20,103 bases of DNA from a virus, in the IMG/VR virus record IMGVR_UViG_3300042691_053961, positions 1 through 20,103 of that record, one strand, 5' to 3'. Under the pieces are notes generated by a model, which had not been told where the DNA came from, made no database searches, and worked only from the letters and a program-made list of their open reading frames with translations. This document shows positions 1 to 9,215 of this stretch, in pieces. Position numbers and translations under genes: made by a program. Within the stretch, counting starts at the first letter, position 1. Every line of letters begins with the position of its first letter.

Positions 1-937
1 GTCTTTCCACTCCATCTAAATTCATTCTTATGATTTGAGGATGATTTCTCACATTATCGATTATTTCTAATTTTTCATCGTTTGTAAGAATTGATTGATT
101 TTTTATATCAAAAATAGGGCAGTATCCTAATCTAAGACTCTTATCTTCTGGCGTTCTATCAAACTTAGCCAATTTTTCTCTCATATTAAACATTTCAATT
201 AAGCCTTCGTGAGTTCTATCAAACAAAGAAAATTGTAAATCAAACTCTCCACTTAATAATCGGTGTTCTGAAATGTTTGTTGGGTCAATATGGTCATCAT
301 CATCAATACAAACTTCTTGCCATGTCTTTCCTAATTGAGCATAATGTAAATATCCTCTACCAAATGCACCTGCTAAAGTAAACCAATCATCTGCTTCTTT
401 TGGTAATTCAACCTTTTGTATTGGAGCTAATCCGTTCATAAAGGTAGTACATATAGTTGCATCACCTCCCATATTCCATTCTTCGATTTCATGAGAAAGG
501 TCATTCAATCCTCTAACCGCATCTACTAATTTCCAATCCTTTTTTTCAATTATTTGCTGCCAATATTCTGATGGTTTCCAAACTTGTCCAATTAATAATT
601 CAAAATGGTGATGAATTATGTTATGAACTTCCATTGGATAATCTTCTGTAATTCTATCCGATTCAATTATATGATAATCAAACCAATCGGAATTATTAAT
701 AGTTTCAACGCATCTTTTTAGTTTTTCAACAAGAATTTTCGGGTGTCTGGAAGGAAGTTTAAATGCCGCCCATCTAGTTTCTAATTTCCAACTGCTATCC
801 GATAGTAAGTTGTACATCTTTTCGTACCATAATTCTGCAATCGGATGAGATTGAACTTCAAAAAATAATGAATATTCGGATGTTAATTTTTTATCGGAAT
901 CGAATTGTCCAAAATCTATTTTAAATACTTTTTTCAT
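1..937 (-). CDS. Large protein of unknown function (5' part, runs off the left edge)
   Basis: This open frame starts at an ATG on the minus strand (bases 935-937) and runs 312 codons leftward without a stop, so its C-terminus lies outside the window. The product begins MKKVFKIDFG and is soluble-looking, rich in Trp, His and acidic residues, with a His-rich stretch near residue 110 (NIIHHHFELL) and an Asp run near residue 212. I recognise no family and see no signal peptide or membrane segment. Codon use and A+T content match the rest of the window. It is the only leftward gene here and diverges from the oxygenase gene across 45 bases, so the two must share one compact promoter region. The uninterrupted length makes it clearly coding. 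Its function is open. Confidence 0.85.
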   Translation of the reverse strand, partial: MKKVFKIDFGQFDSDKKLTSEYSLFFEVQSHPIAELWYEKMYNLLSDSSWKLETRWAAFKLPSRHPKILVEKLKRCVETINNSDWFDYHIIESDRITEDYPMEVHNIIHHHFELLIGQVWKPSEYWQQIIEKKDWKLVDAVRGLNDLSHEIEEWNMGGDATICTTFMNGLAPIQKVELPKEADDWFTLAGAFGRGYLHYAQLGKTWQEVCIDDDDHIDPTNISEHRLLSGEFDLQFSLFDRTHEGLIEMFNMREKLAKFDRTPEDKSLRLGYCPIFDIKNQSILTNDEKLEIIDNVRNHPQIIRMNLDGVER

Positions 938-7983: not shown

Positions 7984-8964
7984 ATGAATTGGTTAAAAAT
8001 CTTAGTAGGATTTTCAGCAATTTTAGTAGCAGGTTGTGCAGCTTATTTTTCAGTTACCGGTTTAGGAGTATTATTTGCTGGAGCATCTTTATCCGTAATG
8101 ATAATGGCAGGTTCATTAGAACTTGCTAAGTTAGTTGCTGCCACTTATTTAAAGCAAATGTGGGATTCCATACATGGATTTAACAAATGGTATCTTACAA
8201 TTTCTGTTGGAATACTGATGTTAATTACATCTGCGGGTATTTTTGGATACCTTTCTAATGCTTTTCAACAGCAAAATTTAGAATTACAAAAAATTGAGAG
8301 AGATATTGCAGTTTATCAAACGCAAATTGATAAAAACGATAAAGAGATTGAAAGATATACCACTCAATTAACCAATCAACAAAACATCCGTAACTCACAA
8401 GAGGCTAACATTTCTAAAGTTGTTGAAAGAAATGGTTCAACATCACGTCTTTCTCAAATGGTTCGTAATGCTGATAGCGAAATCTCAAAAATATCCAAAA
8501 GAATAGATGAATTAACTATTCAGAATAATGTTGCATTAGATTCTATTAACAATATAAAGAACAAAAATATAGATTTAGAAAGAGAAGTTGGTGGATTTCG
8601 ATTTGTAGCAGAGGCTTTCAATGTTTCACTTAATAATGTAGTGAAATTTTTCATTTTTATCATCGTTTTTGTGTTTGATCCGTTAGCAGTAGCACTTATT
8701 ATTGCATTTAATGGCTTGGTTGGTATAAAAAACCGAAAAGAAGAAGAAAATTTAACAAAAAATGTCAAAAATGATGGGGTAATTCGAAAAATTTCCGAAT
8801 TAATGGAAAAAAATTATCAAATTTATGGAGATGATGGAAAAAATTCAACAAAATCTGAAGAAAATCAAAATATAGTAGAAAATTCACAACAACCAGTTGA
8901 TGCACTCATTGAAGCAAAAGAAAGATATGAGGATGATTTAAAAAAAAAGTCGATGAATCTATAA
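7984..8964 (+). CDS. Membrane-anchored coiled-coil protein (zero-frame product)
   Basis: The 326-residue protein has hydrophobic segments at about residues 4-22, 27-45, 70-91 and 221-245. A long coiled coil (about 94-203) of Gln, Glu and Lys heptads lies between the third and fourth. The last membrane segment contains DPLAVALIIAFN, a pattern I recall from membrane coiled-coil proteins of other large phages. The C-terminal 75 residues are charged and low complexity. No signal peptide cleavage site is apparent. A role at the host inner membrane (lysis control, superinfection exclusion or virion docking) is possible but unproven. The last codons contain A AAA AAG in frame, 13 bases before the stop, so a fraction of ribosomes may shift into the frame ending at 9215. 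Confidence 0.8.
   Translation: MNWLKILVGFSAILVAGCAAYFSVTGLGVLFAGASLSVMIMAGSLELAKLVAATYLKQMWDSIHGFNKWYLTISVGILMLITSAGIFGYLSNAFQQQNLELQKIERDIAVYQTQIDKNDKEIERYTTQLTNQQNIRNSQEANISKVVERNGSTSRLSQMVRNADSEISKISKRIDELTIQNNVALDSINNIKNKNIDLEREVGGFRFVAEAFNVSLNNVVKFFIFIIVFVFDPLAVALIIAFNGLVGIKNRKEEENLTKNVKNDGVIRKISELMEKNYQIYGDDGKNSTKSEENQNIVENSQQPVDALIEAKERYEDDLKKKSMNL
8943..8949 (+). other. Candidate -1 ribosomal frameshift site (A AAA AAG)
   Basis: A run of nine A (8940-8948) followed by G contains A AAA AAG with AAA (8944-8946) and AAG (8947-8949) as zero-frame codons. This is the canonical bacterial -1 slippery heptamer, as in E. coli dnaX. Seven bases downstream, ATCTA (8957-8961) can pair with TAGAT (8968-8972) around a loop that contains the zero-frame TAA; the stem is short and weak. 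Transcriptional slippage on the A run would give the same fusion. Confidence 0.6.
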
Positions 8965-9215
8965 ATTTAGATAATTTGACACAAGATTTTTCAACGAGGG
9001 CAGTTGATATTGATGGTGATGGAAGTGTAGATGGGTGGGATACAAATGGTGATGGGATAATTGATAAATTTAGTTATGCGGGTTCAATAATGAACAAAGA
9101 GGGAAAACTTCCTTATTACGCGAGACCTGAATTTGATTGGGATAATACAAAAAATTGGATTAATGACCAAAATGCTGTAAATTATTGGATTACTCATAAA
9201 AAAACAAAAGAATAG
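8950..9215 (+). CDS. Calcium-loop (EF-hand-like) extension, probably expressed by -1 frameshift
   Basis: After a -1 shift at 8943-8949 the frame continues V-D-E-S-I-N-L-D-N-L and on to 9215, adding 87 residues to give a fusion of about 410 residues. The added part contains two overlapping calcium-type loops: DIDGDGSVDGWD (D at loop positions 1, 3, 5, 9 and 12) and DTNGDGIID. These resemble EF-hand, dockerin or thrombospondin type 3 loops. The rest is rich in Trp and Asn (YYARPEFDWD, KNWINDQNAV). The only independent start would be a TTG at 8976, 12 bases after the upstream stop, with no ATG before the calcium loops. An assembly error in the nine-A run could also make the two frames look separate. 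Confidence 0.65.

Follow-up and report, generated by a model that had tools for sequence, protein, structure and literature searches.

Recoding in tailed phages is known best from tail chaperones and virion proteins. Slippage on poly-A runs, the attachment of add-on domains to phage proteins by frameshifting, and the A AAA AAG heptamer are also known already. In Citrobacter rodentium, transcriptional slippage of about 20–25% at an A11 run in tssM1 yields two length variants, both of which are needed (PMC4256274). Mobile Ig-like C-terminal extensions are attached to phage proteins through a frameshift in some phages and as in-frame fusions elsewhere (PMC5009743), and dnaX and IS3-type elements undergo −1 frameshifting at A AAA AAG (PMC4066793, PMC3711429).

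Here we describe a locus in a viral record of 20,103 bases and 30% G+C, analyzed over its whole length (the window), in which a run of nine A residues (A9) near the end of a membrane protein gene precedes a second reading frame, the tail. As in tssM1, a membrane protein has an A run shortly before its 0-frame stop, short and full-length forms, and no stimulators; here, however, the gene is a phage gene, the A9 run ends in A AAA AAG, the added part is an 88-residue tail, slippage is predicted from sequence, and relatives have retained a run of this kind in the opposite register. The tail resembles the Ig-like extensions in being a mobile add-on domain that some phages encode out of frame and others in frame, but it is not Ig-like and is not known on a virion protein, and many in-frame members also retain a slippery run. 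The heptamer and its phase are identical to those of dnaX and IS3-type elements, whereas the SD-like element and hairpin are not conserved here and the run is extended to nine A. What is new is the gene family and the retention of a slippery run in both registers. We consider it very probable that slippage at the A9 run allows one gene to yield a short protein and a tailed long protein with a common membrane and coiled-coil part.

The window also encodes a gp25-type baseplate wedge protein, a carbamoyltransferase, a small heat-shock protein, and a further baseplate wedge subunit; the wedge genes indicate that the source phage has a contractile-type baseplate. The membrane protein (ORF1) has relatives at 80 loci in IMG/VR (protein scan) and 13 in INPHARED. 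The same membrane/coiled-coil part, with an FDPLA motif and about 31–35% identity, is found in Flavobacterium phage immuto, Pelagibacter phage Mosig, Xanthomonas phage XacN1, and Stenotrophomonas phage RAS14, the tails of which differ in lacking the acidic-loop and WINDQNAVNYW domain. Because a cultured relative of the membrane protein sits in phage immuto, a Bacteroidota host for the window phage is plausible but unproven. The family is widespread in large phages and has no assigned function: ORF1 scores 17.8 bits against DUF4407, below the Pfam gathering cut-off of 31.3 and over the coiled-coil stretch only; its PHROGs matches are weak and of coiled-coil type, the tail matching none; and the viral fold matches of the full-length homologue that have good E-values are uncharacterised or unnamed proteins. 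Hydropathy suggests that the coiled coil is probably periplasmic and the tail cytoplasmic. Positions of the features are collected in Table 1.

Table 1. Features of the membrane protein gene, the slippery site, and the tail in the window.
Feature	Position	Strand	Basis
ORF1, phage membrane protein, 326 aa	7984..8964	+	Translation, hydropathy, relatives, AF2 model of homologue L012
ORF1 hydrophobic N-terminal region	residues 1-56		Hydropathy
ORF1 TM segment	residues 68-94		Hydropathy
ORF1 coiled coil, long charged segment	residues about 95-209		Hydropathy
ORF1 TM segment with family motif VFDPLAVALIIAFN, then charged linker	residues 210-249		Hydropathy
A9 run, putative slippery site (0 frame TTA AAA AAA AAG TCG)	8940..8948	+	Conserved in class A; A>=9 rare elsewhere
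A AAA AAG heptamer, phase fit for −1 tandem slippage	8943..8949	+	Sequence; also in remote relative L160
ORF1 0-frame stop TAA, ends short product ...LKKKSMNL	8962..8964	+	Translation
ORF2, −1-frame tail, VDESINLDNL...NAVNYWITHKKTKE, 88 codons + TAG	8949..9215	+	Translation, dN/dS, start-codon survey
Predicted long-form junction peptide KK-VDESINLDNLTQDFSTR			
First acidic loop DIDGDGSVD	9006..9032	+	Translation, alignment of tails
Second acidic loop DTNGDGIID	9039..9065	+	Translation, alignment of tails
WINDQNAVNYW motif, best-conserved tail part	9156..9188	+	Alignment of tails

The 0-frame sequence at the junction reads ...GAT TTA AAA AAA AAG TCG ATG AAT CTA TAA, which bears out the first-pass annotation in placing an in-frame A AAA AAG just before the ORF1 stop, and the −1 frame is open from the GTC that follows the run to a TAG at 9213-9215. 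The window holds two A9 runs where shuffled sequences lead to an expectation of 8.3; since they are rarer than expected, the mere presence of a run proves nothing, and its conservation is the evidence. The other run (1671-1679) falls at codon 229 of 237 in a 2OG-Fe(II) oxygenase gene (983-1696), where the −1 frame stops immediately and the +1 frame after 12 codons, with no extension evident.

To the loci from the membrane-protein scan we added 80 found by scanning IMG/VR with the tail, some contigs being shared between the two scans. After junction-region duplicates were removed, 91 distinct junctions were classified, the counts per class being limited to loci that match two motif patterns. 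Class A comprises 19 junctions, the window and L115 among them, with the tail in the −1 frame; 18 of the 19 read exactly TTA AAA AAA AAG TCN and reach a 0-frame stop after 2 to 6 codons, the run-ending codon included. Class B, defined by a linker run of A9 or more, comprises 29 distinct junctions with the tail in frame and a run of A9–A11; 16 other distinct junctions join an acidic-loop tail in frame through a linker that lacks such a run. The remaining 27 have a WIN...AVNYW-type tail in frame, without acidic loops and without a run of A9 or more. Two out-of-frame relatives depart from the otherwise constant TT...GTC flanks, A9 length, and phase: L115 has A10 (GTA AAA AAA AAA TTG) with a 0-frame stop 14 codons on, and L160, with a remote membrane part, has GAA AAA AAA AAG TAG (A10), which again contains A AAA AAG and leaves the tail in the −1 frame. 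An X XXY YYZ heptamer in the correct phase ahead of the 0-frame stop is found in the window, at the 18 A9 class A junctions, and in L160. Conservation of heptamer and frame among homologues, which the first-pass annotation had proposed as a check, therefore holds across 18 distinct A9 junctions, and the relatives in which both parts form one frame, also sought at its suggestion, proved to be in the majority.

Codon usage sets the run apart. Both aligned AAA codons of the run are codon-invariant in class A, where only 18 of the 129 columns invariant in amino acid are invariant in codon as well and where, of the six other invariant Lys columns, five contain both AAA and AAG. Elsewhere in these loci, 661 other ORFs (403 kb) contain 11 A9 runs and none longer. 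We also scanned all of IMG/VR for TT-A9-GTC followed by GDG codons at the correct distance. This pattern returned 29 contigs. The protein scans had already yielded 27 of them, and the other two (L194 and L198) proved on translation to be class A. The corresponding A10 scan returned one family member (L201, in frame) and one unrelated protein, and the A8 scan returned unrelated genes only. A10 at the class A site occurs only in L085 and L201, both in frame, and no tail encoded as a separate gene with its own ATG was seen among the homologues; neither outcome that the first-pass annotation named as refuting it arises in the out-of-frame group. The unrelated A10 match is a viral protein (L200, 9715-9802) with the run shortly before two DxDGDG-type loops, in frame.

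On a tree of the membrane part, class A members are scattered, and well-supported branches require the label to change six times or more. This implies that the slippery site and tail were gained, lost, or moved repeatedly, apparently as one cassette. Several loci show further irregularities. In L064 (4024-4566) a 181-aa ORF has an A9 run at codon 167, from which a −1 frame of 223 codons opens; this frame may simply be an overlap with the next gene. The tail region of L167 (2971-4494), a relative from a 735-kb phage record, contains two A9 runs, of which the second opens a 46-codon −1 frame without acidic loops. The in-frame relative L027 ends right behind the acidic loops and its remaining tail sequence continues in another frame, which may reflect an assembly error.

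The presence of two acidic loops in the −1 frame, claimed from the window, is upheld by translation and by conservation: the loops are of DxDxDGxxD type, and their key D and G residues are invariant or nearly so across 42 tails. The tail frame is under purifying selection, with a median dN/dS of 0.21 (range 0.08–0.36) over 141 class A pairs. The absence of an ATG start was likewise confirmed, the TTG at 8976 being the only start-like codon before the loops in the window. In an AF2 model (mean pLDDT 87, pTM 0.78) the loops adjoin short strands at 18-20 and 30-32, with no flanking helix pair, and the model of L012, an in-frame homologue, shows a folded tail domain beyond a disordered linker. Foldseek found no match to this fold in the PDB, and none was found in BFVD. 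A motif related to WINDQNAVNYW also occurs in the loop-less tails. Many in-frame tails (L012, L014, L020, and others) end in K-(S/T/I)-Y, as YPTDFxSKSY or NIKTY, an ending that most class A tails lack, and in L113 (2680-2922) an in-frame deletion removes the second acidic loop of a class A tail (DLDGWNYS) and leaves the remainder intact.

Since the loop D and G residues are invariant, metal binding by the loops is plausible. The calcium-sensor role suggested for the tail is not supported: EF-hand families score under their cut-offs, the model lacks EF-hand helices, no PDB fold matches, and the tail is probably cytoplasmic. The window tail reaches 13.1 bits against EF-hand_5 (cut-off 25.9) and falls short of the cut-off of every EF-hand, dockerin, and TSP3 model, and the best E-value of any of 42 tail members against calcium-binding families is 0.0008. 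Membership in a calcium-binding family, sought by Pfam and PDB sequence searches, was rejected on scores under the thresholds. The window's tail is unmatched in INPHARED, and a scan of genome contigs found only two Clostridia loci, with acidic repeats. A literature search on phage calcium proteins, Bacteroidetes frameshifting, and immuto phages found nothing relevant.

Could this arrangement arise without slippage in expression? Purifying selection on the tail, together with the absence of any start codon (ATG, GTG, or TTG) ahead of the loops in 15 of the 19 class A sequences, makes an error, a separate gene, and decay each unlikely. The tail would be a separate small gene if reinitiation after the ORF1 stop used the TTG at 8976, which lies 11 bases past that stop in the window; yet this codon is TTA in the close relative L001, most of class A has no start to use, and relatives carry the tail as an in-frame fusion, and we regard a separate gene as extremely unlikely. 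It is hardly credible that the run was misassembled or misread and that the true gene is a single plain frame. Homopolymers are error-prone, and the two relatives with A10 at the site are in frame, but A9 is present in 29 family contigs from many separate assemblies, A8 in none of the family, and conservation extends to the 0-frame stop and to the sequences flanking the run. The existence of in-frame relatives might also suggest a decayed fusion gene, from which an indel severed the tail so that it is no longer made; the low dN/dS of the tail speaks against this, as does recurrence of the same junction on several membrane-part lineages, and we judge decay highly improbable.

Two further explanations accept that the run is maintained. 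Replication slippage could alter its length so that each genome makes either the short or the long form, and out-of-frame A9 and in-frame A10 do occur at the site in different phages. Such phase variation should mix A8, A9, and A10, whereas A9 is uniform in the 29 class A family contigs, which makes it very unlikely. The run might instead be kept as a point of homology for shuffling tail modules, a use consistent with the reassortment of tails and membrane parts on the tree and with DNA conservation around the run in the class B linker. We think this unlikely, as it fails to explain the lasting out-of-frame junction, the selected tail frame, and the adjoining 0-frame stop.

A −1 slip that fuses the tail to the membrane protein, the central proposal of the first-pass annotation, is instead supported by the conserved site, the selected tail frame, and the in-frame relatives, and the sequences make it very likely that the frameshift fusion is real and functional. 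Decoding in the 0 frame would end a few residues past the Lys run and give the short form. The long form, with its 88-residue tail, could arise if RNA polymerase slippage added one A to a fraction of the mRNA, or if the ribosome moved back one at A AAA AAG; both routes would produce the same LKKK-VDE junction. The sequences themselves show the arrangement, its conservation, selection on the tail frame, and the in-frame fusions of relatives; that slippage occurs, with whatever frequency and by whichever route, and that the isoform ratio matters, we infer from them.

Transcriptional and ribosomal slippage are about evenly matched as routes. The ribosomal frameshift originally envisaged stands as far as the −1 slip at the run is concerned; the ribosome as sole mechanism does not, because a run of A9 or more without a stimulator fits transcriptional slippage at least as well. 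In E. coli, A_AA.A_AA.G is among the most efficient motifs when stimulators are present, and A_AA.A_AA.A/G/C exceeds 0.10% without a stimulator (PMC4066793). Retention of the G after the run in 18 of 18 A9 members and in L160 leans toward the ribosome. So does the direction of the shift, since all out-of-frame members need −1 and none +1, and a direction that is not kept among orthologues is a criterion for transcriptional slippage (PMC3711429). Leaning toward the polymerase, both classes retain at least nine A, more than the heptamer requires, and the length associated with transcriptional slippage (about 8–9 or more) is reached in each group: A9 in class A, A10 in L115 and L160, and A9–A11 in class B. 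Ribosomal and transcriptional slippage may both act at one site (PMC5009743). The hairpin that had been put forward as a stimulator can form on paper in the window (z −0.55), but shuffled sequences fold just as well and relatives do not conserve it; a consensus fold of 14 sequences, covering nested pairs, contains 0 pairs, and inspection by eye found no SD-like element conserved upstream in the relatives. With neither a conserved structure nor an SD-like element, efficiency may be low.

In class B the polarity would be swapped: the tail is in frame by default, and slippage at the A9–A11 run ahead of a −1 stop would give the short form. In each of the 29 junctions the −1 frame closes 0 to 2 codons past the run, and nearly all continue there as (C)GAA A(T/C)T (G/A)AT. 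By chance a −1 stop falls within three codons at 36% of positions, so the stop alone is weak and the run is the stronger signal; its AAA codons are invariant in 29 of 29, and other Lys columns mostly vary. At the class A site itself, a −1 slip in L085 and L201 likewise meets a stop, and six loci (L070, L087, L088, L089, L099, and L113) carry both runs. A candidate hairpin downstream of the class B run (TTCCAC...GTGGAA) is present in some members and lost in others. As read from these sequences, both registers would yield the same pair of products, with the default and slipped forms exchanged. It is an even call whether selection keeps the slippery run, and thus a mixture of short and long membrane subunits, whatever the register, while indels and module exchange swap the default.

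By analogy with tssM1, the most likely consequence would be a membrane complex that carries the tail on only some of its subunits. If this is true, recoding would determine how much of each form large aquatic phages make of a widespread, uncharacterised membrane protein. The family includes natural variants of one site with A9 and with A10, as well as both polarities; it would offer a ready test of whether phages are selected for a mixture of isoforms, and could help to decide between slippage by the ribosome and by RNA polymerase in a host that is probably a member of the Bacteroidota.
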